A stretch of 64,000 nucleotides of DNA from Methylomonas sp. EFPC3 (GTDB taxonomy: Bacteria; Pseudomonadota; Gammaproteobacteria; Methylococcales; Methylomonadaceae), in the NCBI RefSeq assembly GCF_029643245.1, contig NZ_CP116398.1, positions 62,001 through 126,000 of the forward strand, in the 5' to 3' direction. Shown in pieces: positions 9,364 through 27,647 of the stretch. Position 1 is the first letter of the stretch; each line of letters starts with the position of its first letter. Position numbers and translations under genes: made by a program. The notes under the pieces were generated by a model that was given only the letters and a program-made list of their open reading frames with translations, ran no database searches and had not been told where the DNA came from.

Positions 9364-9394
9364 TGGGAGTGTAGTGTTGATTTAACAAACGCAC

Positions 9395-9475
9395 GTCATC
9401 CCGGCGGGGAATGCCGGAGGCTAGTTGCCAAGGATGGCGAGATTTTCCATATCCCTGCCGGAATGGTACCCAACT
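9395..9475. repeat. Degenerate intergenic inverted repeat
   Basis: CATCCCGGCGGGGAATGCCGG near 9395-9418 is partly repeated in inverted orientation by CCCTGCCGGAATG near 9456-9468. It resembles dispersed palindromes of the type found between genes. The rest of the gap 9364-9577 shows nothing recognisable. Confidence 0.35.
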
Positions 9476-9577
9476 TACGGTGGGGGGCTACCGCGCGATG
9501 CTTAACTTTGCCGGTGAGTTAGACCTTGCCGGAAACACTGGTGCTTGTTCGGGCACACACTGCCACGTAACGAATTG

Positions 9578-11191: not shown

Positions 11192-11449
11192 TATTTATTA
11201 ATTACCCGAAAATGGTTTGAATAACATGGCCAAAAATAGATGGTTAACGGAATATTTTTTGGTAAATTGGTATCTACAGTAAGATTATTTAGTAAATGTG
11301 ATATTTATATTTAGATATGTCGTTTTTGAACCGGTAAAAATCTACGGGATGCTTCCAGTCTAAGCGGACTTATAATCCATGGCCTGGGAAATTTCTCTCC
11401 CATTCGTCTTCAATTGATACTAACCAGATTTTTTGAATCAGTATAACCA

Positions 11450-11644
11450 ATGAACACATCCGACAAGCCTGAGATACCGCCTGACGCCCTCGCTATCCTC
11501 GAATGCCTACGCCAAACCGCCGAACAAACCTTGGAACGCAAACGTCGCTTGGGTCATTATGCGGTGATTTGGCAGGACGGCCGGACGGTGTTGGTTGGGG
11601 ACGACGCTCCTGAATCCGATACGGATGGCGATCCGAGCTTGTAG
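11450..11644 (+). CDS. Small hypothetical protein (64 aa)
   Basis: Short acidic protein. An amphipathic N-terminal helix (PDALAILECLRQTAEQTLERKRRLG) is followed by a beta-like segment (HYAVIWQDGRTVLVGDD) and an acidic tail. The layout recalls small hypotheticals of gammaproteobacteria, but no family is recognised. It follows the AT-rich tract 11192-11449, which contains no gene I can support. Confidence 0.5.
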   Translation: MNTSDKPEIPPDALAILECLRQTAEQTLERKRRLGHYAVIWQDGRTVLVGDDAPESDTDGDPSL

Positions 11645-13134: not shown

Positions 13135-14130
13135 TCAAGCCGGTATTTGGCAAGATTCCAACGCGGCCAACATGTCTTCCCGCGGCAAATTGCGGCCGAT
13201 GAAAACCAGATTCGATTCTTTGTTTTCGTCGGGCTGCCAAGGGCTGCCGAAGCTTTCGGTCATCAGCATGTGCACGCCTTGGTAGATGACTTTTTTGTCG
13301 CAGCCGGCAATGTTCAAAATGCCTTTGTAGCGTAGCAGGTCGTTGCCGTAGTCGCGCACCATGATGTCCAGAAAGGCCAGGATGCGCGCGGCGTCCAGTT
13401 CGCGCGCGGTGCGGAACACGAACGAACTGATGTCGTCTTCGTGTTCGTGGCTGACGTCTTCCAGAAAATCCGGTTCGACTTTCAAAATGTCGTCCAGGTT
13501 GAAGCCGTCGATGTCGAGGATGTCGTGCAGCTCGGTGGCGCCGAAATGCACGCGCTTGATCGGCGCCCTGGGGTTCATCGCCCGCAAGCGGGTTTCCAGA
13601 TCGGCAACCACTTCGGCTTCCTGCAAATCGGTTTTGGACAACAGGATGCGGTCGGCAAAGCCGACCTGTTCCTGGGCTTCGTGGTGTTCCTGCAATTGTT
13701 GATGAGCATGCACCGCATCGACCACGGTGACGATGGCATCCAATTTATAGTTTTCGGCGATGTCCGCTTCGATGAAGAAAGTCTGCGCCACCGGTGCCGG
13801 ATCGGCCAAACCGGTGGTTTCGATGATGACCCGCTCGAAGTGAATGTCGCCGGTTTCACGCCGCTCTGACAATTCGCCGAGGATGCGCACCAAGTCACCG
13901 CGTACGGTGCAGCAGATGCAGCCGTTGTTCATGGTCACGATTTGCTCGTCGGCTTGTACCAGCAGTTCGTTGTCGATACCGGTTTCGCCGAATTCGTTTT
14001 CGATCACGGCGATACGGCGGCCGTGGTGTTCGGTGAGGATGCGGTTCAGCAGCGTGGTTTTGCCGGCGCCGAGAAAGCCGGTGAGGATGGTGACCGGCAC
14101 CGGGTAGTTCAATTTGGCTGTAGCGGACAT
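13135..14130 (-). CDS. COG0523 (YjiA-like) zinc-associated GTPase
   Basis: 331 residues. P-loop [10 protein letters not shown] near residues 17-26, metal motif C71-I-C-C74, guanine-specificity segment LLSKTD, a short charged/histidine patch HEHEDD, and a CobW C-terminal domain. The start is the ATG at 14130 with a GGAGA site; the extension upstream overlaps the previous gene's spacer. It is the last gene of the run starting at 18515: surface protein, TonB receptor, dockerin protein, GTPase. Its role is probably delivery or sparing of zinc, by family and context. The spacer 12947-13134 holds only a half-box TGTTATA. Confidence 0.9.
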   Translation of the reverse strand: MSATAKLNYPVPVTILTGFLGAGKTTLLNRILTEHHGRRIAVIENEFGETGIDNELLVQADEQIVTMNNGCICCTVRGDLVRILGELSERRETGDIHFERVIIETTGLADPAPVAQTFFIEADIAENYKLDAIVTVVDAVHAHQQLQEHHEAQEQVGFADRILLSKTDLQEAEVVADLETRLRAMNPRAPIKRVHFGATELHDILDIDGFNLDDILKVEPDFLEDVSHEHEDDISSFVFRTARELDAARILAFLDIMVRDYGNDLLRYKGILNIAGCDKKVIYQGVHMLMTESFGSPWQPDENKESNLVFIGRNLPREDMLAALESCQIPA

Positions 14131-14156
14131 CGGTAGTCTCCGTTCAAGGGGCGTGG

Positions 14157-15446
14157 TTAACGGCGGGTCGGGTAGCACAGGCGCAGGGTGCAGCGGGCTT
14201 GGGCCAGCTTGCCGTCCTGGACGTTGATGGTGCCGTTGCCGTCCAGGTCGCGGACGTCGTTGGCGGTCGCCTGCGGGCTTTTACTGGCTGCGGCCAGAAT
14301 CAGCGCGATGTCGATCCGGTCGATATCGCCGTCCAGATCGATGTCGCCCAAGGCCGGCACGCTGAAGGTGACTTCGTCATAGCCGGGATTGGCGCCGTCG
14401 CTTACCGTCAGTTTGAAGGTGTAATTGCCGGTTTTAAGCGGCAGGAAGCTCGGCGTCGCGGTCGCGGCACCAACCAGGGTCACGGCCGGGCCTTGAGTTT
14501 GCTGCCAGGCGTAGCTGAGCGGACTCGGGCCGGGTTGCGGATCGCTGCTGGCGCTGCCGTTCAGGCCGACGCTGCTGTTCAGGCGGATCACCCGATCGGC
14601 GCCGGCATTGGCTTTTGGCAGTAATTGCGGCGGCGGAGGCGGCGGCAGGGTGTCGACCAGATCGAGCAGGGCGGCGGAATAGTCGGCGGCGCTCAGGCCG
14701 GCGTTGAACAGCACGTAAAACGGTTCGGAGGCCTGGCTGCGCTGGTTGGAGGTGACTTGTAGCTCCACCAAATAGGCGCCGACCGGGCCGCCGGCCACGC
14801 CGATCGCGCTTTCCAGAAAGAAGTTTAAATGCGTGTGCAGGCTGCCCTGGTTATTGGCGGCGTCGACGATCATTTCGGCTTTGCCGCCGATGCCGGTACC
14901 GGTAAAGAAGGTGAAGCTTTCCTGGCCGCTGCCGGGTGTGAAACAGAACAGTTGGCCGCCGCATTGGTTGTAATCGGTGATGACCGTGGCCGGATCGATA
15001 CCGCCGGCCAATTTGATGCGGACGTTGCCGGGCGCGTCGGCCCAGGCGCCGGCGGCAGTGCTCCAGTAGCGCAATTTGCCGATGGCCCGGTAGCGCACCA
15101 GTTCGGCCGGATTCAACATGTTTTGCACGGCTTGGAAGCCGGGATTGGGGGTTTTGTTCGGGCCGCCGGAAAAGTCGCGGAAATCGCTCAAAAACACCAT
15201 TTGGCCGGTGGCACCTTCGATCGGTAGCGTGTTCGGCGGCAAGTTCAGGCCGGCGACCAGTTGCGCCAGATCGCAGCCGACCGCGCCCGGCGTGCGGCAG
15301 AAGCCGGCTTGCATCGCATTGCCGTCGCCCCAGATTTCCACGTCCAGATGCACCGCTTGTGCCGGCGCGGACAAAGCGAGCAGCAAGGGCAGAGCGGGGA
15401 GCCATGGGCGGGTGGTTAAGAATGATCGCTGTATCGAAGCTGGCAT
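14157..15446 (-). CDS. Secreted protein with PKD-like and dockerin-like C-terminus
   Basis: 429 residues with a signal peptide (cleavage near AQA-VHLD, about residue 31). The N-terminal 270 residues are related to the PEP-CTERM protein at 17808-18515: both share a G-x-[IL]-H-x-HL segment followed by GGxVGAY and an [FV]N-x-GL motif. A proline linker leads to a PKD-like domain (about 285-365), then two dockerin-like calcium loops (DIDLDGDIDRID and DLDGNGTINVQD). It lacks the PEP-CTERM anchor of its paralogue. An AGGAG site precedes the ATG. Probably a zinc-stress surface or secreted protein; no enzymatic motif seen. Confidence 0.75.
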   Translation of the reverse strand: MPASIQRSFLTTRPWLPALPLLLALSAPAQAVHLDVEIWGDGNAMQAGFCRTPGAVGCDLAQLVAGLNLPPNTLPIEGATGQMVFLSDFRDFSGGPNKTPNPGFQAVQNMLNPAELVRYRAIGKLRYWSTAAGAWADAPGNVRIKLAGGIDPATVITDYNQCGGQLFCFTPGSGQESFTFFTGTGIGGKAEMIVDAANNQGSLHTHLNFFLESAIGVAGGPVGAYLVELQVTSNQRSQASEPFYVLFNAGLSAADYSAALLDLVDTLPPPPPPQLLPKANAGADRVIRLNSSVGLNGSASSDPQPGPSPLSYAWQQTQGPAVTLVGAATATPSFLPLKTGNYTFKLTVSDGANPGYDEVTFSVPALGDIDLDGDIDRIDIALILAAASKSPQATANDVRDLDGNGTINVQDGKLAQARCTLRLCYPTRR

Positions 15447-15497: not shown

Positions 15498-17726
15498 CTA
15501 GAACGTGGCGCGGAAGCCGAGCACGACGCTGCGGCCCGGCTCCGGCGCGAAGTTGCGTAAAAACGAGACCGAGCTGCGGATTTCTTCGTTGAGCAGGTTG
15601 TTGGCTTTGGCGAACAGCCACAGATCCAGCGGCTCCAGGCCGCGCCAGTGGTAATCGGCGGAGGCGTTGAGCAAGTGGTAGCCTGGGGTGGCGGTCTCGT
15701 CGTTGCCCGGCCGGTTTTGCATTTGGCCTCTGGTGTAACGTAGTGCTGCATTCCAGCGCTGGTCGCCGAAGCCGATTTCCGCGCCCAGCCGCAGCGGCGG
15801 CAGGCGCGGCACGTCATCATCGACAAATCGGCCGCGGACGAAATCGGAGAACAGGGTCAGCTTCAATTGGCCGAAGCGGGTATCGGCCAGGGTGGTCTGG
15901 GCTTCGGCTTCGTACCCCAGGAATAAGGCGTCGCGCTGGTTGTAGGCGTAGACCGGCAGACACTCGATCAGGTTGACGCAGGCCGGGTAGAACTGGGCTT
16001 CGTGGTAATTGTAAAAAACCTCGGGCTGGCGCTTCTGGTAAATATAATTTTCGGTCCAGTTGGCGTAGGCGTTGAATTTTGCCGCCAGCCTTTGGCTATG
16101 CCAATCCAGGCCCAGGTCGGCCAGATTAGAGGTCTCGTTGCCGAGACGCACATTGCCGATCTCGAAGTTGCGGGTCGACAAGTGCGGGCCCAGCGCCAGC
16201 AATTCCTGGATATCGGGCGAGCGCTTGGAGCGGCTCAAGGACAGGCTCAGCGTGGCTTCTGTCGTGGCTTGCCAACTGGTGGTCAGCGAGACCGAGTCGG
16301 CGCGGAAATTCAAAGAGTCCGGCAAGGTCACGGCCGAGTAGATCGGCACTTGTCCCGGTGGAGCCGGAAAGGCCAGTTGCGTCGCCGTTGGATTGATACG
16401 GCTGCGTTCGGTACGCAAACCCAGTTCGAATTGCCACTCGCCGAATTTCAGTTTTTGCAGGCTGAACAGGCCCAGCGTGTCGCCGTTGGTGGGCGGGACG
16501 AAGGTTTCTACGCCCAGCGCCGAAAAATAGCGATCCTGCCATTGGGCGCCGAGGGTGCCGGACCAGGGTTCCAGAAAATGGTGTTCGATCTCGAAGCGGC
16601 CCTCGCCAACCTGATTGTTGAAAGTGGTAAACGGCAGTCGGCCTTCCCATTCGGTGTGAATGTAGTCGACCAGACCGTAGCGGAATGCGGCTTTGTCGAT
16701 GCCGCGTACCGGCTCGTACCATTCGCTTTTGAAGTCGTAGCGGGTCTGGCGCATGTCGATCCGAATGTCAGGGTTCAGGGCTTCCATGCTGAGAATGTCG
16801 GCGAACTGCTCCAGCAAGGCCGGGTCGATGTCCGGCAGGATCAGTTCCAGACCGTCCAGGCTGCTCGCGTCGACGCCGTGGCTGCCTTTCGGGATGCCGT
16901 AGCGGTTGGTGAAGTGGCCGACCGACATGCCGGCCATGCCGTGATCGCCCAGCCAGGAGGCACCCAGAAAACCGCCGACGCTCTCGCTGTCGGTATTGGG
17001 GATGGTGCCGCGGGCGTTCAGAATCTTGCTCAGGCCGAATTGTTCGCGGACCGCGTCGGCGGCGATGGCTTCGCCGGGAATTTCGGTGTCGTTGCGGTTG
17101 CGGTGAAAACCGCCGATTTTGAACGCGAGCTGGTCCCGGCCCAAATCCAGTTTGAAGCCGGCGTTGGTGCCGTCGGCGTTGGTATCGAAGCGCTGTTCCA
17201 GCGCGCCTTGCAGCAAGCGTTCCGGTACCCGCTCGGGGATGCGGTTGTCCTTGACGTTGACCATGCCGCCGATGGCGTTGCCGCCGTAGCGGATGGTGTC
17301 GGCGCCGCGCGCGACCTCGATTTGTTCGGCGAACAGCGGCTCGATGGCGCTGGCGTGGTCGGGGCTGAGAAACGATGCGTCGTGGCTGCCGATGCCGTCC
17401 TGCATGATTCTGACCCGCGAACCGGTCAGGCCGCGAATCACCGGCAGGCCGACGCCGGGGCCGAACGAGGCGTTGGCCACGCCCATTTGGTTTTGCAGGG
17501 TTTGGCCCAGATTGTCGGCTTGCTGCAATTTGAGCGCGTCGCCTTTAATCGAGCTGAAGCTGGGCGTGATGCGTTGTTTGGGGGCGTCGGCAGTGACTTC
17601 TAATGCCTCCAATTCCGTTTCCGGTTCTGCCGCAGCGGCCGAGACCGGATCCGGTGTGTCCGTTGCCGCGGCCGGCAATGCAGCGGATGCCGCCAGCCAC
17701 AGTAGTCCTAAAGCGTGTGCTTTCAT
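15498..17726 (-). CDS. ZnuD-like TonB-dependent outer-membrane receptor
   Basis: 742-residue TonB-dependent receptor with a signal peptide (about 21 residues). The plug region carries the ZnuD-like series SFGPGVGLPVIRG, then SPDHASAIEP, then YGGNAIGGMVNV, and the protein ends in a 22-strand-type barrel with the terminal sequence VVLGFRATF. The TonB box is not sharply defined (LEALEVTAD). Family members import zinc or zinc complexes, and the neighbours (COG0523 GTPase, secreted zinc-stress proteins) agree. It follows the PEP-CTERM gene after an 81-base gap containing a hairpin. Confidence 0.9.
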   Translation of the reverse strand: MKAHALGLLWLAASAALPAAATDTPDPVSAAAAEPETELEALEVTADAPKQRITPSFSSIKGDALKLQQADNLGQTLQNQMGVANASFGPGVGLPVIRGLTGSRVRIMQDGIGSHDASFLSPDHASAIEPLFAEQIEVARGADTIRYGGNAIGGMVNVKDNRIPERVPERLLQGALEQRFDTNADGTNAGFKLDLGRDQLAFKIGGFHRNRNDTEIPGEAIAADAVREQFGLSKILNARGTIPNTDSESVGGFLGASWLGDHGMAGMSVGHFTNRYGIPKGSHGVDASSLDGLELILPDIDPALLEQFADILSMEALNPDIRIDMRQTRYDFKSEWYEPVRGIDKAAFRYGLVDYIHTEWEGRLPFTTFNNQVGEGRFEIEHHFLEPWSGTLGAQWQDRYFSALGVETFVPPTNGDTLGLFSLQKLKFGEWQFELGLRTERSRINPTATQLAFPAPPGQVPIYSAVTLPDSLNFRADSVSLTTSWQATTEATLSLSLSRSKRSPDIQELLALGPHLSTRNFEIGNVRLGNETSNLADLGLDWHSQRLAAKFNAYANWTENYIYQKRQPEVFYNYHEAQFYPACVNLIECLPVYAYNQRDALFLGYEAEAQTTLADTRFGQLKLTLFSDFVRGRFVDDDVPRLPPLRLGAEIGFGDQRWNAALRYTRGQMQNRPGNDETATPGYHLLNASADYHWRGLEPLDLWLFAKANNLLNEEIRSSVSFLRNFAPEPGRSVVLGFRATF

Positions 17727-17807: not shown

Positions 17808-18515
17808 TCACGCGGCCGATTTGCGGCGGCCGAAACCCACCAGGCCGGCGATTGCCGGAGCGAACAGCCAAGCCGCGCCGGGCAGAGGTACTGCTGCGGC
17901 AGCCGATACGGCCGTTTCGAAGGCGTCGTGCGCCAGTCCGCGGTTGAATACGATATGGAACGGTGTGGATGCGGCCGAGACCGGTGTGGTGCTGTTCGGG
18001 AGCGTTTCGAACAATTGCAGGGTGATCCAGTAGGCGCCGACGCTGCCTCCCAGGGCATTGGAAGCGTTGCGGATGGCCATGTCCAGGTGTTCGTGGATGT
18101 CGCCGGTATTGCCGAATTGGCCGATCACGCCGGGGCCGTTTTGCACGCCGGATGTGGTGAACGTGGTGACGTTACCCAAGGCATCGGAGACTTCGATATG
18201 CTCGCCGTTAGGTGCCGAGTTCGACCAGATACTGCCGTCCCAGACTTTCAAATTGCCCAGGCCGCTAAACCATAACCAGTTGCCGGCACCGAAGGCGCCC
18301 AATGCGGTGTTGGCGTCGTAGCCCGGATCGTCGGTGCGGTAAAGTCCGCCCGACAAATCGCCGAAATCGGCTTCGAACCAATCGCCGTTGACGAAGATTT
18401 GACCATTGGCTTTCCAGGGCTGAATGTCGCCGTCGTGTTGGTCGGCGGCCGAAGCCGCGGTTAAATTCAAGCTCAAACCCAGTGCCAAAATTGGTGCTAT
18501 CCATTGATTACGCAT
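17808..18515 (-). CDS. Zinc-stress PEP-CTERM surface protein
   Basis: 235 residues starting at the ATG at 18515 behind an AAGGAG site. Signal peptide to about residue 23 (ASAADQHDG follows). The body includes GDIHEHLDMAIRNASNALGG and the tail is VPLPGAAWLFAPAIAGLVGFGRRKSAA, a PEP-CTERM sorting signal. A Zur-type box lies about 70 bases upstream of the start (18584-18598). It is the first gene of the lower half of the island, followed by the TonB receptor and its own dockerin-bearing paralogue. A role in surface zinc binding is inferred from regulation and histidines; no enzyme motif. Confidence 0.78.
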   Translation of the reverse strand: MRNQWIAPILALGLSLNLTAASAADQHDGDIQPWKANGQIFVNGDWFEADFGDLSGGLYRTDDPGYDANTALGAFGAGNWLWFSGLGNLKVWDGSIWSNSAPNGEHIEVSDALGNVTTFTTSGVQNGPGVIGQFGNTGDIHEHLDMAIRNASNALGGSVGAYWITLQLFETLPNSTTPVSAASTPFHIVFNRGLAHDAFETAVSAAAAVPLPGAAWLFAPAIAGLVGFGRRKSAA

Positions 18516-18583
18516 GAACGATCTCCTTAAAACAAAAATAAAAACCTGACAAAAAATACGAGGAAGTGTGAGGTGTCTCACGA

Positions 18584-18598
18584 TGCAACAATATAACA
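18584..18598 (-). promoter_or_regulatory. Zur-type operator upstream of the PEP-CTERM/TonB operon
   Basis: On the minus strand TGTTATATTGTTGCA. Its left half equals the half-site of the perfect palindrome at 25489-25503, and the whole 15-mer differs by one base each from the two boxes before the second TonB receptor. It lies about 70 bases upstream of the 18515 start. Confidence 0.7.
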
Positions 18599-18709
18599 TT
18601 ACTGATATGCGATGCAATCGGGAATTTGCTTTAATTCATCTTGTGCTTTGCCGAATTCAGTATTAGCAAACCATAAACCGATATGTCGCGGCAGCGGCCA
18701 TAGCCGTGG

Positions 18710-18725
18710 TCCTTAGCGCTAAGGA
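18710..18725. repeat. 16-base perfect palindrome at the folE2 stop codon
   Basis: TCCTTAGCGCTAAGGA spans the folE2 stop codon (18719-18721). Possibly part of a transcript end; there is no T tract. Confidence 0.4.
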
Positions 18726-19504
18726 TGGGTTAGTCGTTCGATGCGGGCATACGCGGAATGGTTGTGTATCGACTCGAAGTTTTCCGATTCCACGGTGTAG
18801 GCGTTGATGCGCGGGTCGGCGTCCAGTCGGGCGGCGACGTCGCGCACCATATCTTCGACGAATTTGGGGTGGTCGTAGGCGTATTCGGTGACGTATTTTT
18901 CGTCCGGTCGTTTCAGCAAGCCGTAGATTGGCGACGAGGCTTCGGCTTCGACCAGCGCAATCAACTCTTCAAGCCAGATAAATTCGCTGGCCGCCACGGT
19001 AATCGTCACATGCGACCGCTGGTTGTGGGCGCCGCGCTCGGAAATTTCCTTGGAACAGGGGCACAGGCTGGTGACCGGCACTACGATTTTGACTTTGATC
19101 CGGCAGCCGTTGCTGTCGATTTCGCCGATGAAGCTGACCTGATAATCCAACAGACTGCGTACGCCGCTGACCGGCGCGGCTTTTTCGACGAAGTACGGAA
19201 AGCGCATGTCGATATAGCCGGATTCGGCTTCCAGTCGCTGTAGCATTTCCTGCAACATGACCGGAAACGAGGCAATGCTGATCTCCCGGTCGTGGCTATT
19301 CAAAATTTCCACGAAGCGCGACATGTGGGTGCCCTTGAAGTCGTGCGGCAGATTCACGTACATATCAAAACGAGCCACGGTATGTTGTTCGCCGCAGCTC
19401 CGGTCTTTGACCCGCACCGGATGCAGGATGTCTTTGATGCCGACTTTGTCGATGGCGATGCGGCGACTGTCGGCACGGGCTTGGATGTCTTCGATGGGGA
19501 TCAT
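18719..19504 (-). CDS. folE2: GTP cyclohydrolase IB (FolE2)
   Basis: 261 residues of the GCYH-IB family, which makes 7,8-dihydroneopterin triphosphate from GTP, the first step of folate (and pterin) synthesis. Unlike zinc-dependent FolE it works with other divalent metals and is a known zinc-sparing replacement. The active-site cysteine segment [11 protein letters not shown] (C148, C150) and H160 (RGAHNQRSH) are present, and length is normal. It lies 123 bases after fhcA on the same strand, with a REP-like hairpin between. Context strongly suggests Zur control. Confidence 0.95.
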
Positions 19505-19538
19505 GGGTTTTAATGGCTGTTACGGTTCTGTGGCGTTT

Positions 19539-19617
19539 TGTAGGCTGGGTAGAGCGAAGCGAAACTCAGCGGATAGGCTTTCAATGCTGGGTTTCGTTTC
19601 ACTCTCTCCAGCCTGCA
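19539..19617. repeat. REP-like inverted repeat between fhcA and folE2
   Basis: Imperfect 32-base arms at 19539-19570 and 19586-19617 with a 15-base loop; outer core TGTAGGCTGGGTAGAGCG. It is the same repeat family as the RAYT-linked hairpin at 4554. It may modulate read-through from fhcA into folE2. Confidence 0.7.
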
Positions 19618-19627
19618 TTCGATATTG

Positions 19628-21280
19628 TCAGTCATGCACCTTAAACCTGGGCCGTTCGCCGAAGTCGGCGTCGTTGACCGCGTATTGGCCGAGTTTCAGG
19701 CTGTAGAAGCGATCGAAGTGGTGTTTGACGGTGCGGGCGATGCCGGCGTCGTAGACCGGGGCGACGGTTTGCGCCAAGCCGGCCGGGCGGTCGAGAATCT
19801 GGCCGTCCTTCACCACCAGCTGGCCGTTTTTGAACAGCAAGGCCGCGTCGGCGAAGACGGCCCGGTAGTCGGGACGAGCGCCAGCGTGCTGGCCCGGATC
19901 GTACACGGCAACGTCGGCCACGGCGCCGGGGGCGAGATGGCCGCGATCGTTGAGCCCCAACAATTTGGCGGCGGCGGAGCGGGTCATGGTTGCAACTTCG
20001 CTCAGGCTCAATTCGCGTTTCAGGCCCGGCAACAAGGTGAGCGCCAGCGCTTCCTGATTCAAGTGTGCCATGCATTCTTGCCGGTAGTCGGCGTCCATCA
20101 GCAAGCGCAGCAGTTCCGGATAGGCTGTAAATGGCGCGCCGTTGGGGTGGTCGGTGGTGAAGAACAGGCGCTCCGGCGCCTCGGCCAGTAAAAATAGTTC
20201 CAGGCCAATCGCCCATTGCAGGGTGTTGACGAAGCTAGCTTGGCGGTAGCGGTACGGCACCACGCCGCCCGAGCCTTCGCATTCGGCGTCCCACATCACG
20301 TATTTACCGGGGCTGGCGTCGGCGTGACGGCTGTATTGGGCGATAACGTCGCCGGAAATGGTCACCGTTTGGCCGAACAACACTTGGCCGACGTCCATGG
20401 TGATGTTGGGGTGGCGGTTGAAGGCCTCCAGCAGCTTGGCTGCCGCCGAGGAAAAGCCTTTGGCGCCTTCCGTGCCGTAAGCGTAAAACTGGACGTGGGC
20501 CAGATGCATCGGTAGGCCTTGCGCGGCTTCCATGGTCGCGACGATGGTATCGACGTTGCCGGGAATGCCCAGGTTGTTGCAGTGAACGTGCGGTGGGTGC
20601 GGCACGCCGAGCTGATGCACGGCCGTTTGCAGGGTTTGCAAAATCTGCCGTGAGCTGACGCCGTAATCCGGCACGATATCGTCCAAACCGAACTGGCGGA
20701 CGTTGCTTTTAAAGGCGTTGGCGCCGCCGGCGTTGATGATTTTCAGACCCAGGGCGCGGGTGGCGTTCAAAGTCCAGGCCACGTAATCGTTGATCTGGTT
20801 CTGGCCGGCCTTGGCCCGCATCAAGCGCAGCAGTAAATCGTCATTACCGAGTATCGCCAGCGCGGCGGTGTCCAGAATCGGAATATCGGCCATTTGCAGG
20901 TGTACGTCCAAGGCGCCGACCGGCAGCATCGCCGGCTCGACCACGGTGGTGTAGCCCATGCGGGCGTAGCGGTAGCCGGTGTCGGTGCTGGACCATTTGG
21001 CGGTGGAAAAAGGGTGATTCAGCCGACGCGCCATATGGTTGCGGTGCTGCTCCGGCAGCAACAGCCGGGCGGTGTTGACGTTACCGCCGGCGATGTGGCT
21101 GTGGATGTCGATGGCTCCGGCCATCACGATCTTGTCTGTCGCGTCGTAAACTGCGTCGAGACGGGCATCCGGGCCGGGATCGGCGACGATCACGCCGTCG
21201 CGGATGAACAGGTCGCCGGCTTGGCCGTGCAGGTTTTGGCTGGGGTCGTAAATCGATCCATTGTGGAGTTTGATCAGCAT
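19628..21280 (-). CDS. fhcA: Formylmethanofuran dehydrogenase/formyltransferase-hydrolase subunit A, solitary copy
   Basis: 550 residues of the FwdA/FhcA amidohydrolase family. In methylotrophs the Fhc complex takes formyl groups from tetrahydromethanopterin via methanofuran and releases formate; subunit A hydrolyses the formyl-methanofuran at a binuclear metal site. Expected ligands are intact: H60 and H62 (DIHSH), K180 (GLKIINAGG, candidate carboxylated lysine), H231/H233, H262 and D377 (TTDHPNG). The genes fhcB, fhcC and fhcD, normally adjacent, are absent. Instead it sits between DUF1826 and folE2 in a zinc-limitation island. It is probably a second copy, but a genome check is needed. No clear ribosome site precedes the ATG. 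Confidence 0.9.
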   Translation of the reverse strand: MLIKLHNGSIYDPSQNLHGQAGDLFIRDGVIVADPGPDARLDAVYDATDKIVMAGAIDIHSHIAGGNVNTARLLLPEQHRNHMARRLNHPFSTAKWSSTDTGYRYARMGYTTVVEPAMLPVGALDVHLQMADIPILDTAALAILGNDDLLLRLMRAKAGQNQINDYVAWTLNATRALGLKIINAGGANAFKSNVRQFGLDDIVPDYGVSSRQILQTLQTAVHQLGVPHPPHVHCNNLGIPGNVDTIVATMEAAQGLPMHLAHVQFYAYGTEGAKGFSSAAAKLLEAFNRHPNITMDVGQVLFGQTVTISGDVIAQYSRHADASPGKYVMWDAECEGSGGVVPYRYRQASFVNTLQWAIGLELFLLAEAPERLFFTTDHPNGAPFTAYPELLRLLMDADYRQECMAHLNQEALALTLLPGLKRELSLSEVATMTRSAAAKLLGLNDRGHLAPGAVADVAVYDPGQHAGARPDYRAVFADAALLFKNGQLVVKDGQILDRPAGLAQTVAPVYDAGIARTVKHHFDRFYSLKLGQYAVNDADFGERPRFKVHD

Positions 21281-21310
21281 GTGGGGGTACGCACCAGTGG
21301 CATTAAGTTA

Positions 21311-21359
21311 AGGCTTAACCATTCGTCCTTCGACAAACTCGGGATGAACGGTTAAGCCT
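21311..21359. repeat. Intergenic palindrome upstream of fhcA
   Basis: AGGCTTAACC (21311 on) and GGTTAAGCCT (ending 21359) form a 10-bp stem continued by ATTCGTCC/GGATGAAC with mismatches. The TTCGTCCTTCGACAAACTC loop resembles a palindrome common between genes of related bacteria. Confidence 0.6.
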
Positions 21360-21446
21360 GGCGACATTGGGGGATACGCATCGCGTAACATGTTCAAGGT
21401 TACGGATGAATTGATGGTCAAAGGCTACGGACGCATAGCCTACGCT

Positions 21447-22163
21447 TTACAACATATCCAAGGTCAACAACAGCCGGCGCGGCTGCACCGCGGTCGGGGC
21501 CGGCGAGCGGTGCACCAGGCCGTGGCCCTCGTTGCCTTCCCAATGTTCGCCCTTCATCAGGCCCACCGCATAGGCCGGCATTTGCTGAATCGCGGTCGGA
21601 TCGGCAATCAGGCCGGAGCAGTCGTCGGGCTGGCCGCAAGCGCCCATGCCCAGCTTGGTGCGGTCAACGGCGTATTCGGGCAGCCATTCGGTGCCGATGC
21701 CGCCGTAGCTACAAATCAGCCGGGCCGGCACTCTATCGACGTGAAACCGCGGACACATGGCCTTGTCCAGGGTGCGCAGGCGCAGGCCGGCCTCGCGCTG
21801 GCCGAACAGTTCGCAGAAGGCGGCGGTCAGCAGTCGCAGGTCGTCCAGCCAGGCTCGGTAACCGGACAATTGCGCCGCTTGCGGCCAGAGCCGGTCGAAG
21901 TCGTAATGTTCGGGATCGACCAGGGCACTGAGCTCCACGCCGACCTTACCGGTCAGCGCGGCATATACGAAGGTCTCGATGTCGCGCGGCAGCGGCCGCT
22001 CGATCAGACACAGGTTGACGTCGTCCTCGTAAATCCGCGCCAAATCGGCGAAGCGGTTGGAAATCACGGTTTTGGTGGCGGGACGTATCGCCAGCGACCG
22101 GAATGGGCCGGAAAATATCGCCGGCGCGGCGGCAGGCTGGGCAAGAGGCACGCGAGAAAACAT
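21447..22163 (-). CDS. DUF1826 family protein
   Basis: 238 residues of the DUF1826 family, found repeatedly beside COG0523 GTPases and zinc transporters. Conserved-looking features are CPRFHVDRVPARLICSYGGIGTEWL and a C-terminal HRSP segment (GHGLVHRSPAPT), a pattern that recalls metal-dependent oxygenase-like folds with H-x-D and a distal histidine (speculative). The start has an AAGGAG site and lies 9 bases after the ZIP gene, so the two are cotranscribed. Function is not established. Confidence 0.85.
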   Translation of the reverse strand: MFSRVPLAQPAAAPAIFSGPFRSLAIRPATKTVISNRFADLARIYEDDVNLCLIERPLPRDIETFVYAALTGKVGVELSALVDPEHYDFDRLWPQAAQLSGYRAWLDDLRLLTAAFCELFGQREAGLRLRTLDKAMCPRFHVDRVPARLICSYGGIGTEWLPEYAVDRTKLGMGACGQPDDCSGLIADPTAIQQMPAYAVGLMKGEHWEGNEGHGLVHRSPAPTAVQPRRLLLTLDML

Positions 22164-22172
22164 GGGAGCTCC

Positions 22173-22943
22173 TTAAGGGGTTAACAGGGATTGTTCGAAC
22201 AGGACGATGCCTTGCATGAAGGCAATGCCGAGCGCGAACGAGGCGCTTTGGCCGCCGAGATGGCGGAAGCTGGAACGCTCGTGCAACACCGGGATCAGAT
22301 CCGAAGCGGCGATGTAGATAAAGCCGCCGGCGGCCACCGGCAGCAACACCAGCAAGGACGATTCGGCGACTTGGCTGAGCAGCAGTGTGAACAAGGCACC
22401 CGGCAGTACGCTCAGCGAGCAGTAGAAGTTGTACAGCACCGCTTGCCGGGGCCGGTAGCCGCCGCGCAGCAAGGCGCCGACATCGCCGAGTTCCTGCGGC
22501 ACTTCGTGGGCGACGATGGCCAGCGTGGTGGTCCATCCCAATATCGGGTCGGCTAAAAAGCTGCCGGCGATCAAAATGCCGTCCACGAAGTTGTGGATGG
22601 CGTCGCCGATCAGGTTCATTTTCGCCAGCGGTAAAATCTCGGCGCCGGGCCGGGTATCGACGTTGTGGTCGTGGCGCCAGCGCACCAGTTTTTCCAGCAC
22701 GAAAAAGCCGAACACGCCGACCAGCACGGTCAAACACACGTCGCTGACCGAGCCGTGGCGGGCGACCGCATCCGGAATCAGATGAATGAAGGCGTCGCCG
22801 AGCAACACGCCGACCGCCAGCGCCACCAGAAACGGTACGATGCGTTTCAAGGTTTCCGCGGGCAGCCATAGCGCGAAGGCGCTGGACAACGAGCACAAGC
22901 TGACGGCGAGACTGGCGGCGATGGTGGCGAGATAAATAGTCAT
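22173..22943 (-). CDS. ZIP-family zinc/metal transporter
   Basis: 256 residues, inner-membrane importer with about eight helices. ZIP metal-site motifs are present in the central helices: HNFVDGILIAGS and AHEVPQELGDVG. A cytoplasmic histidine-containing loop between helices 3 and 4 (RWRHDHNVDTR) is short. I start it at the ATG at 22943 with a GGAGTAA site; the longer frame would run into the preceding gene. It is tightly packed with the small membrane protein upstream (7 bases) and DUF1826 downstream. Confidence 0.92.
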   Translation of the reverse strand: MTIYLATIAASLAVSLCSLSSAFALWLPAETLKRIVPFLVALAVGVLLGDAFIHLIPDAVARHGSVSDVCLTVLVGVFGFFVLEKLVRWRHDHNVDTRPGAEILPLAKMNLIGDAIHNFVDGILIAGSFLADPILGWTTTLAIVAHEVPQELGDVGALLRGGYRPRQAVLYNFYCSLSVLPGALFTLLLSQVAESSLLVLLPVAAGGFIYIAASDLIPVLHERSSFRHLGGQSASFALGIAFMQGIVLFEQSLLTP

Positions 22944-22950
22944 GGCGGCG

Positions 22951-23184
22951 TTACTCCTGGCGCGGTAAGGATCGGTATTCGCGATGTGTGCCGTAGACGA
23001 AATGAGCGAAACGGTCGGGCAGGATATGTGAAACAAAATGGGCTAACAGGATGCCGAGCACGAGCAAAAATGCGCCGGACAGTGCCCGTTTCGCCGTTTT
23101 TTCACTCTGCAAAGCCATGGTTATGCCCAGGATGGCCAGCACTTCCAGCCCAATTAGATGCAGGTAAGTGTCGGTATCGACCAT
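22951..23184 (-). CDS. Small histidine-containing membrane protein upstream of ZIP (77 aa)
   Basis: Two predicted helices (about 8-25 and 35-55). Histidines cluster at the membrane boundary: LLAHFVSHILPDRFAHFVYGTHREY. It starts 7 bases before the ZIP gene. Not a recognised family. Position and histidines suggest an accessory subunit of the transporter (inference). Confidence 0.65.
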   Translation of the reverse strand: MVDTDTYLHLIGLEVLAILGITMALQSEKTAKRALSGAFLLVLGILLAHFVSHILPDRFAHFVYGTHREYRSLPRQE

Positions 23185-23223
23185 GTTCTAATCCATCGCG
23201 TGTCGAGATAATCAGCCGAGAAT

Positions 23224-23248
23224 GCCGCCGTCGCGATGCGACGGCGGC
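23224..23248. other. Perfect 11-bp hairpin in the zinc island
   Basis: GCCGCCGTCGC and GCGACGGCGGC enclose a 3-base loop. It lies in the 161-base gap between the PEP-CTERM gene at 23346 and the small membrane protein. No T tract; may attenuate or stabilise the message. Confidence 0.65.
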
Positions 23249-23345
23249 AAGTCGGTGCCAGCAAGCGAACAGGAGAATCCGCTGCCGCTGCTGGCCGACG
23301 CCGTAATCTCACCCTTGGGTAAGCTAACACGGCGTTGCATCGGGA

Positions 23346-24179
23346 CTATGCCGACAGCGGCTTAGCTTTGCGTTTCAATCCCAGCAATCCGATCAGGCCG
23401 GAGCCGAACAGCCAGGCTGCGGCCGGCACCGGCACTGCTACCGGGGCGAAGTCGAAATAGAAACGGCCGGAATTGATGCTGGCGTCATTCAGGCCGACCA
23501 GACGAAATTCCGCCGTATAAGTGCCGGCCGGAACGTTGGCGGCAGTCCAGAAGATCGGCGCGAAGCCATCGTCGAGAAAGCTATCCAGGCTGATGGTGTC
23601 GCCGTTGGCAAACAGATTGGCGGTTTGGTGGTCGCCGACGAACAAACCGGCGGTGGCGGAAATCAGTTGCAAGCCGATAGCAGTATTGCCCAACAAGGTC
23701 GACCAGCGGTTGCCGCTGCTGCTGAACAGGATTTGTTCTTCGCTGCCGGTTTCGTGTCCGGCCAAACTGTCTACCCTGGCGAAGGTCAGGTTACCGTAGT
23801 CTTCCGACGAATTGTTTTGGGACGTAAGTTTGCCGCTATACAGGCTGCCGCTGCCCCAATTCAGCGCCAATGGCGCATCCAGCGAGGAAATTTCCGGAAC
23901 GCGGTTGTTGGTATTGGTGTCGTTGGTCGTTGGCGATCCTGCCGGGCCACTGTATGCGTAGGCGCCGATGCCGTGGTAGTGGTCGCCGTGGTTTAACAGC
24001 AAGGTCAGATTGCCGTAATTGGGATTGGCAAGACCGTTGTAAGTACCCGAGGTGATGCCAGCTCTGCCGTCGATGCCGATGTAATAGCCGGCCAGACCGC
24101 TTTCGTGAGCTTGAGACTGAGCGGATACAGTCAACCCCATGCCAATCAGGGCGACCGATAACAGTTGGTTTTTTTTCAT
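23346..24179 (-). CDS. Zur-linked PEP-CTERM protein (all3515-like)
   Basis: 277 residues from the ATG at 24179 (GGAGGG site). Signal peptide to about residue 24 (SQAHES). A histidine-rich segment LLLNHGDHYHGIGAYAY near residue 68 is a likely metal site. C-terminal PEP-CTERM tail VPVPAAAWLFGSGLIGLLGLKRK. It resembles the Zur-repressed PEP-CTERM proteins named after cyanobacterial all3515 (my recollection of the family, not searched). It follows zigA in the presumed operon and would be displayed at or released from the cell surface when zinc is low. Confidence 0.8.
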   Translation of the reverse strand: MKKNQLLSVALIGMGLTVSAQSQAHESGLAGYYIGIDGRAGITSGTYNGLANPNYGNLTLLLNHGDHYHGIGAYAYSGPAGSPTTNDTNTNNRVPEISSLDAPLALNWGSGSLYSGKLTSQNNSSEDYGNLTFARVDSLAGHETGSEEQILFSSSGNRWSTLLGNTAIGLQLISATAGLFVGDHQTANLFANGDTISLDSFLDDGFAPIFWTAANVPAGTYTAEFRLVGLNDASINSGRFYFDFAPVAVPVPAAAWLFGSGLIGLLGLKRKAKPLSA

Positions 24180-24211
24180 GGTATTGCCCTCCAAGGCAAA
24201 AGTCGGAAAAG

Positions 24212-24241
24212 TAGGCCGGCGCAGCGGATTGCATCGCCGGC
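24212..24241. repeat. REP-like hairpin between zigA and the PEP-CTERM gene
   Basis: GCCGGCG (24215-24221) pairs with CGCCGGC (24235-24241) and is preceded by TAG. The start TAGGCCGGCGCAGCG resembles the RAYT-linked repeat core at 4554. Confidence 0.5.
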
Positions 24242-24264
24242 GGGTGAAACCGTTACATTGCGCG

Positions 24265-25479
24265 TCATTCCGCGAACCAAAGCGGAAACGGATCTGCGTA
24301 TTGGCGCCAAGCCGACGGTCCTGCCGCCAATTCCGCGTCGTTTAGCAGGCAGGCATCGAGTTCGCGACAGACTTGTTCGGCATCGACGTTTTGGCCGATG
24401 AACACCAGCTCCTGGCGGCAATCGCCATAGGGTTCTTGCCAATGTTCGCGAATGTCTTCCAGGTACTCTTCCGGCCATTGATCCTCCGGCACCGACGCCC
24501 ACCAGCGCCCGGCCAGACCGTGGCGCATGATGCCGCCGGCTTGCGACCAGTTGCCGGCGTGCTCGGGTCTGGAAGCCAGCCAAAAAAAGCCTTTGGAGCG
24601 CAGTAGGGTGCCGTTTTCCCACTCGCCTTCGTGCAAATGCCGGTAAAAGCGTGTTGGGTGGAAAGGGCGGCGGGCAGAGTACACAAAGCTGCTGATGCCG
24701 TATTCTTCCGTCTCGGGAACATGCTCGCCGCGCAATTCCTTGAGCCAGCCGGGTGCCTGTTCGGCTTTTTCAAAATCGAATAGCCCGGTATTCAATACTT
24801 TGCCGAGGTCGACTTGACCCATGACTATCGGCACGATTTCGGCGTCGGGATTCAGGCTGTGCAAGATGGCCTTGAGGTTGACGATTTCGTCACTGCTGAT
24901 CAGATCGATCTTGGAAATCAGGATCACGTTGGCGAATTCGATTTGATCGACCAGCAGGTCGGCGACATTGCGCTCGTCGTCTTCGCCCAAAGCCTCGCCG
25001 GCTTCCTTCAGACTCAGGGCTTCCTGGTAGTTGCGCATGAAGTTGACCGCGTCTACCACGGTTACCATGGTATCCAGTCGGGCGATGTCGGCCAGGCTGG
25101 CGCCGGTTTCGTCGCGAAAGGTGAAGGTTTCGGCGATCGGCAGCGGCTCGGCGATGCCGGTGGATTCGATCACCAAATAATCAAAGTGGCCGTCCCTGGC
25201 CAGGTTGCCGACCTCAATCAGCAAGTCCTCTCGCAGGGTGCAGCAAATACACCCGTTGCTCATTTCGACTAGTTTTTCCTGGCCACGATTCAGTTGCACC
25301 TCGTTTTTGACCAGCGCGGCGTCGATGTTGACTTCGCTCATGTCGTTGACGATCACAGCCACCCGCCGGTTTTCGCGGTTATTGAGAATATGATTCAGCA
25401 GCGTGGTTTTGCCGGCGCCGAGAAAGCCGGACAACACGGTGACAGGTAATTTGGATGCGGCGGATGGATTCGGTGTCAT
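24265..25479 (-). CDS. zigA: ZigA-type zinc metallochaperone GTPase (COG0523)
   Basis: 404 residues. P-loop [10 protein letters not shown] (about 17-26), metal-binding C77-I-C-C80, specificity motif SKID, and an extended C-terminal domain ([22 protein letters not shown] to QELVFIGQN) typical of the longer ZigA branch. Family members are induced by zinc limitation and pass zinc to client enzymes. A perfect Zur-type palindrome (25489-25503) ends only 9 bases before the ATG and no ribosome site is visible, so the transcript may be nearly leaderless. It is likely the first gene of a long operon running to folE2. Confidence 0.93.
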
Positions 25480-25488
25480 GGGTGTAGA

Positions 25489-25503
25489 TGTTATATTATA
25501 ACA
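25489..25503. promoter_or_regulatory. Zur operator (perfect palindrome) at zigA
   Basis: TGTTATATTATAACA, a perfect 7-1-7 palindrome matching the gammaproteobacterial Zur-box core. It covers TATAAT/TATAAC -10-like sequences; a TTGAAA hexamer lies about 15 bases upstream on the minus strand. Zur binding here would block the zigA promoter. Confidence 0.82.
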
Positions 25504-25514
25504 ATTGGAATTTC

Positions 25515-25543
25515 AAAAAAAGGCGCGTTTTCCGGCGCGCCTT
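25515..25543 (-). terminator. Rho-independent terminator after the second TonB receptor
   Basis: On the minus strand GGCGCG pairs with CGCGCC around an 8-base loop, flanked by AAA and a run of seven T. It lies 17 bases after the receptor stop codon and just upstream of the zigA promoter. Confidence 0.88.
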
Positions 25544-25560
25544 TGTTAACGGGCTTGGAT

Positions 25561-27591
25561 TTAATAGCTCAACCGAAACCCAACTTCGGCGCCGCGTCCC
25601 GCTTCCGGCGCGAAATTGCGCAGGTACGAAGTGGCGTTGCGGATGTTTTGGTCCAGCAGGTTGTTGCCTTTGGCGAACACCATCAGTTTGGCGTCGCTGG
25701 CGGCTTTGATCTGGTAATTGACGCCGACATTGAGCAGATAGTAACCGGCAGTCGAGGTCTCGAACTCGCCGACATGGGTTTGGTCGTCGGCCCGAGTCAG
25801 GCGCAGGTAGCTGGAGAGTTTGTCCCGGTTGTAGTCCAGCTGCAGGCCGTAACGCAGCGGCGGCATGCGCGGCACGTCGCCGCCATTCACGAATTGGCCG
25901 CGGGTGTAATCGCTGAACAAGCTCAGTTCCAGCAGACCGAGGTAGTTTTCCATCATAGGAAAAATCAGCTTGGCTTCATAGCCTTTGAAAATGGCGTCCT
26001 GCTGGCTGCTTTGCACGACGGGTTTGCAATCGACGGCGCAAGGGTTGCCGTCTTCGTCGACGAATTCGCCGGTACGGCGTTGGTAAATGTAATCGCTGGC
26101 CCAGTTGTGGAACAAATCGAGTTCGGCGCGCATCCAGTCGCTTTTAAAGCGGTAACCGAGATCCAAATTATAGGAAGTTTCTTCCTTCAAACTTAGGCGA
26201 CCCATTTCAAAGCTGCGGGTGGCGTCGTGGTAACCGTTGGCTAGCAATTCCTGGACATTCGGCGCCCGCGACGAGCGGGTTATTGCCAGATTCACACTAT
26301 TGCGGCTATCCAATTTCCACAAGGCCGACATCGAAGCGCTGACCGGTGTGTAACTCAGAGGCGTGAAGCCGTCCGGGTGGATGTCGGTTTGCTCGACGCG
26401 GGTGCCCAATTGGTAGGTGACCGGGCCAAGGTCGAAGGCTTCGACGCCGAACACGCCGTAGCTATAGGTGTCGGAACGCGGCACGATGCTGGCTCCGGTC
26501 AGTTTTTCGATGGCATTGAAGTCGCTGACCTGAGCTTGAAAACCCACGGCGCCGCGTAACGGGCCGATGTCGTGATGATTCAATTCGATTCGGCCTTCGT
26601 AGCTTTTGTTGGTGAAAAAGGCGCCGGGTTCGCCGTTCGCCACTTCGGTATGTTGGTAATCGGTGTAACCAAGGCGGGTGCGCAGGCTTTTGGCGAACGG
26701 CAGCGGGTTGTTCAGCTCGCTTTTGAAATCGTATTTGTTTTGCCGCATTGCGATTCTTACGGTTTCTTCGCCGGTGCCGTCCGGTGCGATGCCGTAGGTA
26801 TTATTTAGGTTGTTGATCGAAACCCCGGCAAAACCGAAGTCGTCTACCCACGACAAACCTGCCGAGCCGCTGATCGCTTCGGCGCCGGTGTTGTTTAAAT
26901 AGCCGCGCGGATTGTCGACGACTGCTAACGATGGATCCGTAATTCCTACCTTGGCGGTATCGATGCCCTGGCCACCAATGTCCATGTTGTTGCGGTGGCG
27001 ATAAAAGCCGTCCACGTGGTAGGCGATGTGATCCTTGCTGCCTTCGACCTTCATCGTGGTGCTGGTTTCGTCGCTGGTCGAGTCGAAGCGTTGTTCAAGT
27101 GCCGCGTTCAAAGCTTTATCGAACGCTCTGCCCGGAATCCGGTTGTCGATGACGTTGACCACGCCGCCGATCGCGCCGCTGCCGTAGAGCAAGGTCGCCG
27201 GGCCGCGCAAGACTTCAATGCGTTCGGCCAGCAGAGGTTCGACGCTGGTGGCGTGGTCCGGGCTGATGGCCGAGACGTCGTTGGCGCCGATGCCGTTATT
27301 CAATACCCGCACCCGCGGGCCGGCCTGGCCGCGGATGACCGGTGTGCCGACGCCGGGGCCGAAGGATTGGCTGGAAATGCCCAACTCGTTTTTTAATGTA
27401 TCACCGATGCTGTGACCGGTTTTCAGACGCAATTCGTCGTCGCTCAACACGGTGACCGGAGAACTGGCGTCGGCTTTGCTGACCGGCAGCGGTGCCGTGA
27501 CGATGATTTCGTCCAGCTTGTTGTCCGTTTGGGTTTCTGCGTGCAGCAGGCTGGCGGGTAGCAGCAACAGAAAGGGCGACAATTTATTCAT
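25561..27591 (-). CDS. ZnuD-like TonB-dependent outer-membrane zinc receptor
   Basis: 676 residues from the ATG at 27591; a TTG 30 bases further upstream is less likely because the signal peptide (MNKLSPFLLLLPASLLHAE) begins at the ATG. TonB box-like LDEIIVTAP; plug motifs SFGPGVGTPVIRG, NGIGANDVSAISPDHA and YGSGAIGGVVNVIDNR are characteristic of the ZnuD branch; C-terminal GAEVGFRLSY. Paralogous to the receptor at 15498. Two Zur-type boxes lie 34 to 71 bases upstream and a terminator follows, so it forms a single-gene zinc-controlled unit. Confidence 0.92.
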   Translation of the reverse strand: MNKLSPFLLLLPASLLHAETQTDNKLDEIIVTAPLPVSKADASSPVTVLSDDELRLKTGHSIGDTLKNELGISSQSFGPGVGTPVIRGQAGPRVRVLNNGIGANDVSAISPDHATSVEPLLAERIEVLRGPATLLYGSGAIGGVVNVIDNRIPGRAFDKALNAALEQRFDSTSDETSTTMKVEGSKDHIAYHVDGFYRHRNNMDIGGQGIDTAKVGITDPSLAVVDNPRGYLNNTGAEAISGSAGLSWVDDFGFAGVSINNLNNTYGIAPDGTGEETVRIAMRQNKYDFKSELNNPLPFAKSLRTRLGYTDYQHTEVANGEPGAFFTNKSYEGRIELNHHDIGPLRGAVGFQAQVSDFNAIEKLTGASIVPRSDTYSYGVFGVEAFDLGPVTYQLGTRVEQTDIHPDGFTPLSYTPVSASMSALWKLDSRNSVNLAITRSSRAPNVQELLANGYHDATRSFEMGRLSLKEETSYNLDLGYRFKSDWMRAELDLFHNWASDYIYQRRTGEFVDEDGNPCAVDCKPVVQSSQQDAIFKGYEAKLIFPMMENYLGLLELSLFSDYTRGQFVNGGDVPRMPPLRYGLQLDYNRDKLSSYLRLTRADDQTHVGEFETSTAGYYLLNVGVNYQIKAASDAKLMVFAKGNNLLDQNIRNATSYLRNFAPEAGRGAEVGFRLSY

Positions 27592-27624
27592 AACCAGAGT
27601 TGGACCAGGAAAGCGGGTCAAAAA

Positions 27625-27639
27625 TGTTATATTGTTGCC
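27625..27639 (+). promoter_or_regulatory. Zur-type box A before the TonB receptor
   Basis: TGTTATATTGTTGCC on the plus strand, one base different from the box at 18584. Its centre is 23 bases from that of box B, and the two face each other. Confidence 0.65.
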
Positions 27640-27647
27640 ATTGATTT

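Follow-up and report, generated by a model that had tools for sequence, protein, structure and literature searches.

What is a solitary gene for the FhcA subunit doing among the zinc-acquisition genes of a methanotroph? The FhcABCD formyltransferase/hydrolase complex converts formyl-H4MPT to formate in C1 oxidation, a step on the formaldehyde-to-formate route in these organisms, and FhcA is its zinc-dependent hydrolase subunit. The window analysed here is the whole stretch of 64,000 nucleotides at bases 62001–126000 of the one-contig 4.44 Mb genome of Methylomonas sp. EFPC3 (coordinates below are window positions unless placed on the genome), and the gene in question, fhcA2, occupies positions 19628–21280 on the minus strand. 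It starts with ATG and encodes a 550-aa protein that matches the family model TIGR03121 with 646.6 bits (E 2.5e-194) over residues 3–539, exceeding the curated cut-off of 392.75 over the full length. The original prediction, in which a full-length FwdA/FhcA-type amidohydrolase lies between DUF1826/ZIP and folE2, is borne out by the family matches of the flanking genes, all on the minus strand: upstream lie the DUF1826 gene (21447–22163; PF08856, 219 bits) and the ZIP-family zinc transporter gene (22173–22943; PF02535, 140 bits), and downstream lies folE2, encoding GTP cyclohydrolase IB (18719–19504; NF010200 and PF02649). Among the matches, the closest named relative is Methylomonas koyamae SM2, which is 98% identical at fhcA2. 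We consider it quite probable that FhcA2 is a Zur-controlled FhcA isoform that replaces FhcA1, the product of a second fhcA elsewhere in the genome, in the Fhc complex under zinc scarcity, a reading for which we infer Zur control, co-transcription, the subunit swap and a metal advantage from sequence.

Read along the minus strand, the island begins with a ZnuD-like TonB-dependent receptor (25561–27621; PF00593/PF07715, with NF038289 at 412.5 bits, below its cut-off of 950) and continues through zigA, encoding a COG0523 zinc metallochaperone GTPase (24265–25479; NF038288, 688 bits, above cut-off), a gene of the all3515 family, 'Zur-repressed PEP-CTERM protein' (23346–24194; NF040463, 274.5 bits), a small ORF, zip and duf1826 to fhcA2 and folE2. 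These are followed, on the same strand, by genes for a small secreted, PEP-CTERM-like protein without a Pfam family (17808–18515; name and start assigned by eye), a second ZnuD-like TonB-dependent receptor (15498–17726; NF038289 at 375 bits, below cut-off), a PKD-domain protein and a second, YjiA-like COG0523 GTPase (13135–14178; PF02492/PF07683, with NF008578 at 321.5 bits, below its cut-off of 361). As is typical of Zur-regulon paralogues, fhcA2 clusters with genes for COG0523 proteins, FolE2 and zinc transport. The presumed zigA...folE2 operon has internal gaps of 161 and 166 bp in this strain; the latter separates duf1826 from fhcA2, a distance of only 5–17 bases in many Methylomonas relatives. 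Between these two genes there is also an inverted repeat (21300–21365), whose arms measure about 18 bases as judged by eye and whose centre occurs once in the window.

A second fhcA inside a complete fhc cluster had been set as a test of the zinc-scarcity reading, and one was found. FhcA1, the housekeeping homologue, is encoded at genome positions 2567135–2568760 and is 52% identical to FhcA2; its cluster, ordered fhcB-fhcA1-methyltransferase-fhcD-fhcC, lies approximately 2.5 Mb along the contig from fhcA2. It was also correctly noted that no fhcB, fhcC or fhcD is found near fhcA2 (at about 0.08 Mb on the genome): the genome's only FhcB and FhcD matches and its only FhcC-sized PF01493 match are all near 2.57 Mb. 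There is one FhcB match and one FhcD match, and PF01493 gives two matches, the 288-aa FhcC frame and a 1,848-aa frame that we take to be glutamate synthase.

All seven expected metal ligands (H60, H62, K180, H231, H233, H262 and D377) are intact in the FhcA2 product, and they are present in 66/66 zinc-island rows, in 40/40 FhcA1 rows and in the three PDB rows. Since the ligands are kept, FhcA2 is not metal-free, just as the original prediction had it, and we rejected a metal-free FhcA2 as incompatible with them. An AlphaFold model of FhcA2 has a pLDDT of 82, with values below 50 in residues 66–95, 304–319, 321–342 and 379–385, and its best match is to the FhcA chains of Methylorubrum extorquens (6s6y chain A, TM 0.88). 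FhcA2 is under purifying selection, with dN/dS of about 0.08–0.13 against six relatives; for FhcA1 against two relatives the values are 0.10–0.11. At 41 positions, FhcA1 and FhcA2 have different residues, each fixed to at least 90% in its type. At positions 235, 266 and 338 (FhcA2 numbering), FhcA1 has C, H and C in all 40 rows whereas FhcA2 has N, Y and G in all 66; among the 17 other fhc-cluster rows, N and Y are found throughout and G in 14. By their place near the ligands, C235, H266 and C338 could form an extra metal site in FhcA1. Of the two archaeal FwdA rows, one shares the histidine and neither has the cysteines, and for this reason we do not claim that the site exists. A more specific version of the metal-controlled swap, in which FhcA2 joins the same FhcBCD and, by lacking this extra Cys/His site, spares zinc and keeps formyl-methylofuran hydrolysis going, strikes us as improbable.

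The kept ligands also bear on a simpler explanation, namely that FhcA2 is functionally equal to FhcA1 and that zinc-starved cells just make more FhcA, with an unchanged need for metal. Increased copy number has indeed been offered as an alternative for ligand-keeping paralogues in the main text of Haas 2009 (PMC2770081), and the full ligand set of the zinc-island rows agrees with it. The phylogeny, however, does not. In a quick IQ-TREE analysis (144 rows collected, 101 after thinning of near-copies), which has some long branches and for which the tool warns of joins, the two FhcA types separate. Solitary copies from Methylophaga and Methylococcales group in a clade of 45 rows (SH-aLRT 95), of which 41 rows have a zinc-type neighbour and four have none seen, and the fhc-cluster copies of the same groups, together with L187 and the Filomicrobium locus L197, form a 28-row clade (SH-aLRT 96). 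Further fhc-cluster copies, alphaproteobacterial ones and those of gammaproteobacteria such as Sedimenticola, also fall on the FhcA2 side of the tree. Because the clades are separate, FhcA2 is old or acquired and is no late copy of FhcA1; a recent duplication is incompatible with the tree and was rejected. That the same organism groups hold two separately supported clades, together with the 41 differently fixed positions, argues against a pure dosage copy, which would need no old, distinct sequence. We regard a dosage backup as possible but doubtful, and favour a zinc-controlled isoform that is distinct from FhcA1.

How widespread is the zinc setting of this isoform? In the genus, an FhcA2-type gene (at least 76% identical) is present in 20 of 37 Methylomonas genomes, and any FhcA match in 36 of 37; among these 20 copies the gene is split in G001 and forms a single longer frame with an insert in G011 and G018. 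In the family, 49 of 206 genomes with completeness of at least 80%, from 13 of 27 genera, have a match of at least 67%; G021, G078 and G089 carry two such copies, and the copy in G181 has an inner stop. A scan of 84,980 species genomes yielded 71 loci, including those of Methylococcus capsulatus Texas, Crenothrix, Methylocucumis, Methyloprofundus and Methylophaga. When the surroundings of 52 further family copies were fetched, one or more of zigA, zip, duf1826, znuD and folE2 turned up close to 48 of them. Each of the 13 family genera having the gene shows the zinc context in one copy or more, and so does Methylophaga. The gene order varies: the M. lenta operon reads duf1826-fhcA2-thrS-queD-folE2-hisI-COG0523-COG0523, and in Methylophaga muralis (L093) the end of a COG0523 gene runs into fhcA2, and a DksA homologue, zigA, duf1826, zrgA and a Zur-like regulator (below the NCBIfam cut-off) are encoded in the same stretch. 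The COG0523 neighbours of fhcA2 in Methylophaga and in Methylococcales belong to different deep branches (FastTree, with long-branch warnings), which lends no support to the idea of one dedicated COG0523 partner. Within the 37 genus genomes, FhcA2 and a close ZigA occur together in 19, FhcA2 alone in one, ZigA alone in four and neither in 13 (Fisher p 1.4e-5, a value that ignores shared ancestry). In the Methylomonas genome G012, which has no FhcA2, a 27-residue FhcA2-like stretch (G012:C1:1952488-1952568; 63%, E 2.6e-4) is found about 6 kb away from zigA and may be a remnant of FhcA2 loss.

The exceptions to the zinc-gene context are four of the 52 copies (L051, L141, L142 and L168). In L141, L142 and L168 the FhcA2-type gene is downstream of bioA and no zinc genes are seen in the fetched stretch; no bio gene was seen at L051, the second copy in G021, which is near a contig end. 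As a separate observation, a solitary FhcA2-type gene is located directly 3' of bioA in L082 (9992–11650), L142 (8079–9728) and L168 (7025–8749), from G078, G089 and G061, respectively, and the bioA-linked gene precedes bioD in L082 and L141. G078 is Candidatus Methylobacter titanis, and both it and G089 also have a zinc-island copy. Other arrangements of fhcA were met outside this set: the Methylosinus fhc clusters L121 and L125 (both 8119–11635) have two tandem fhcA genes (B-A-A-D-C), and in the sulfur bacterium Sedimenticola (L107, 8814–12928) fhcB-fhcA is followed one ORF on by a 4-HFC-P synthase gene, while fhcD sits on the same contig at a distance of about 15 kb (G218, G223). In HIMB59-type marine alphaproteobacteria a solitary fhcA adjoins a divergent folE encoding GTP cyclohydrolase I (L117 8835–11641, L116, L118–L120, L123, L124, L127, L128 and L132); hisI comes after folE in nine of these ten loci, L116 being cut by a contig end, and FhcD is found elsewhere in seven of the ten genomes, one of them as a partial match.

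Such loci invite the thought that FhcA2 works outside the Fhc complex, on another formamide-type substrate, for instance in making a pterin beside FolE2 or a metal-binding small molecule. The gene is solitary and near folE2 in many genomes, and the HIMB59-type alphaproteobacteria provide another solitary FhcA beside hisI and folE. The partner subunits, on the other hand, speak for the complex. FhcD was found in 32 of 35 genomes checked and FhcB likewise in 32, the misses being G070 and G071 (MAGs, 89 and 87% complete) and G224; a zinc-clade FhcA2 is encoded in 30 of the 35 genomes, of which 28 have FhcB as well as FhcD, the exceptions again being the two MAGs. Only G220 has two FhcD. Two FhcB rows in G021, G218 and G223 are pieces of one gene; G220 also has two FhcB rows (43 and 29%), and the second row in G221 is a weak partial match. 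FhcA2 thus has no private partners in these genomes, and a second fhcBCD set as its partner was discarded, there being none in the EFPC3 genome and two FhcD in G220 alone among the 35. Whole-genome searches of G209–G216 (Methylococcus capsulatus Texas, Crenothrix and six Methylophaga) found one FhcA2-type and one FhcA1-type gene in each. Furthermore, the residues around the FhcA2 ligands are those of M. extorquens FhcA.

One genome goes further. In the Methylomonas MAG G022 (95% complete), the sole FhcA2 carrier in the genus that lacks a close ZigA, FhcA2 at 87% is the only full FhcA match, found together with FhcB, FhcC and FhcD; otherwise there is one 61-residue FhcA stretch (E 1e-3). In this MAG a phosphopantetheinyl transferase gene comes after fhcB, on a contig of 148,839 bases. 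On a different contig, of 121,532 bases, an ORF without a Pfam family and a HupE/UreJ gene come before fhcD-fhcC. The two sites are away from the contig ends, and no fhcA1 remnant was seen in the 15 kb fetched around each. FhcA2 has probably become the only FhcA in G022, a natural replacement, although genes can be absent from a MAG and zip-fhcA2 still has a Zur-like box upstream, which is odd for an only copy. Taken with the single partner sets, G022 leaves a role on another substrate quite improbable in our judgement, and an exchange of FhcA2 for FhcA1 in the Fhc complex likely.

If the isoform answers to zinc, where is the control? We scored sites against a gammaproteobacterial Zur consensus of 22 positions. 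The top match in the window is a palindrome upstream of zigA (25485–25507, 18/22), followed by boxes at the listed start of the upstream ZnuD-like gene (27621–27643, 15/22) and upstream of the small secreted-protein gene (18580–18602, 15/22). Top scores in 20 simulated sequences were 14–17, and because seven of the 20 reached at least 15, the zigA site alone stands out by score; the boxes scoring 15 gain support from the fact that all three best sites sit at island genes. Allowing up to two mismatches to a 16-base core, the zigA site is the sole match in the genome, a rarity that is by itself no proof, since a reversed-pattern control gave one and two matches and a site this good may therefore arise by chance. 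A sigma-70-like promoter match (25488–25516, minus strand) has its -10 hexamer overlapping the zigA box, and it is the only such match in 18400–25700 as compared to 2.7 expected from shuffles, in what is a weak scan. A candidate for Zur itself is a Fur-family gene (L228) whose product is 34% identical to the Methylophaga Zur-like protein; it is not beside zinc-transport genes, and the next two genes are a DNA ligase and a phosphomethylpyrimidine-kinase gene.

The box at the head of the run is 4.2 kb upstream of fhcA2, and directly before fhcA2 the best score is 12/22, i.e. no Zur-like box. Combined with the 166-bp gap and its inverted repeat in this strain, this would fit a gene that sits in the island by chance, with its own promoter and no zinc control. 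We hold this to be very unlikely: the gap shrinks to a few bases in many relatives, the zinc context recurs across the genera, the only promoter match of the run, in that weak scan, lies under the Zur-like box, and at L099 a strong box is found 85 bp before a solitary fhcA. Across loci, a box scoring at least 16 within 6 kb upstream is present at 36 of 58 zinc-context loci but at only one of 34 fhc-cluster loci (L209), six rows with less than 1.5 kb upstream having been dropped (Fisher p 3e-9, uncorrected for ancestry), and at 8 of 15 loci with neither context, four of which (L099, L110, L119 and L120) reach p ≤0.05. The EFPC3 fhc cluster has no Zur-like box (best 12, p 1.0). L099 and L110 fall outside the zinc label, and the strong box of L110 is upstream of hisI-fhcA; in G220 a strong Zur-like box is situated about 130 bp upstream of hisI in hisI-fhcA. 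No box of at least 16 was found upstream in L141 and L142, and none was seen for the M. lenta operon, where the contig starts 864 bases before fhcA2. Of the 13 Methylophaga-type zinc-context loci that were scored, 12 lack a box matching this consensus in the 6 kb upstream (13–14 only), and five of those 12 have a box of 16–18 about 2.25 kb downstream of the start. The zinc context across the family genera and Methylophaga and the Zur-like box over the promoter match strongly suggest zinc control of fhcA2, and support the zinc-scarcity FhcA proposed at the outset.

We propose the following sequence of events. When zinc falls, Zur would leave the box heading the zigA-...-zip-duf1826-fhcA2-folE2 run, and FhcA2 would be made along with the zinc importers, the COG0523 GTPases and FolE2. 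FhcA2 would then substitute for FhcA1 alongside the one set of FhcB, FhcC and FhcD, so that formaldehyde oxidation could continue. Still a metalloenzyme, FhcA2 most likely holds or receives its metal better than FhcA1 does, and its gain would come from tighter binding or from help by the co-made COG0523 GTPases rather than from having no need for metal. The present evidence does not tell apart the mechanisms put forward at the outset, namely higher affinity, another metal or loading by the COG0523 GTPases. The distribution of the gene suggests that many methanotrophs guard a central energy pathway against zinc shortage. Among the titles and abstract openings listed from an open-licence library, none pointed to a zinc-linked FhcA. 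If our reading is true, zinc would join copper and lanthanides as a likely control point of methane and methanol oxidation in bacteria, and a dedicated zinc-starvation isoform would imply that the Fhc step becomes limiting in nature. The finding bears on the core of methane oxidation and would allow two isoforms to be tested on one scaffold.

Archaeal FwdA is part of the CO2-linked formylmethanofuran dehydrogenase. Its structures (5t5i, 8rja) have the same fold as FhcA2 at 32–33% identity in the fold match, and the FhcA2 ligands are the same in 8rja and 9sw6. The best structural and sequence match to FhcA2 is M. extorquens FhcA (6s6y), which shares its metal ligands and the neighbouring motifs HVHCNN and AHxQFYAYG; that FhcA, by the title of the entry, was co-crystallised in the FhcABCD complex, whereas FhcA2 is encoded by a lone gene within a zinc island. 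The FhcA1 of this genome, encoded at 2.567 Mb, shares family and ligands with FhcA2 and differs in having C235, H266 and C338 in place of N, Y and G. At the level of regulation, the relevant comparison is with the zinc-enzyme paralogues of Zur regulons, given in the main text of Haas 2009 (PMC2770081) as HisI, PyrC, Cam, HemB, CysRS, ThrRS, AmiA, QueD and DksA. FhcA is absent from these nine families, and neither 'formylmethanofuran' nor 'amidohydrolase' occurs in that main text. Like those paralogues, fhcA2 is an additional gene for a zinc enzyme with COG0523 and FolE2 genes close by, a Zur-like box heading the run and the housekeeping copy elsewhere, and the M. lenta operon unites fhcA2 with copies of ThrRS, QueD and HisI, families from the same list. 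The subclass of PyrC, HemB and DksA is marked by loss of zinc ligands; FhcA2 has lost none, and for that reason it belongs with the ligand-keeping subclass, the gain of which was left open in the main text of Haas 2009 (PMC2770081). Unlike the families listed there, FhcA belongs to a C1-oxidation complex of four subunits, the other three of which are single-copy here. As judged from its gene context and sequence, FhcA would be an added family within the known phenomenon of Zur-type zinc-enzyme backups, and a comparison of FhcA1 with FhcA2 on one FhcBCD scaffold would be a clean way to test what such a ligand-keeping paralogue gains.
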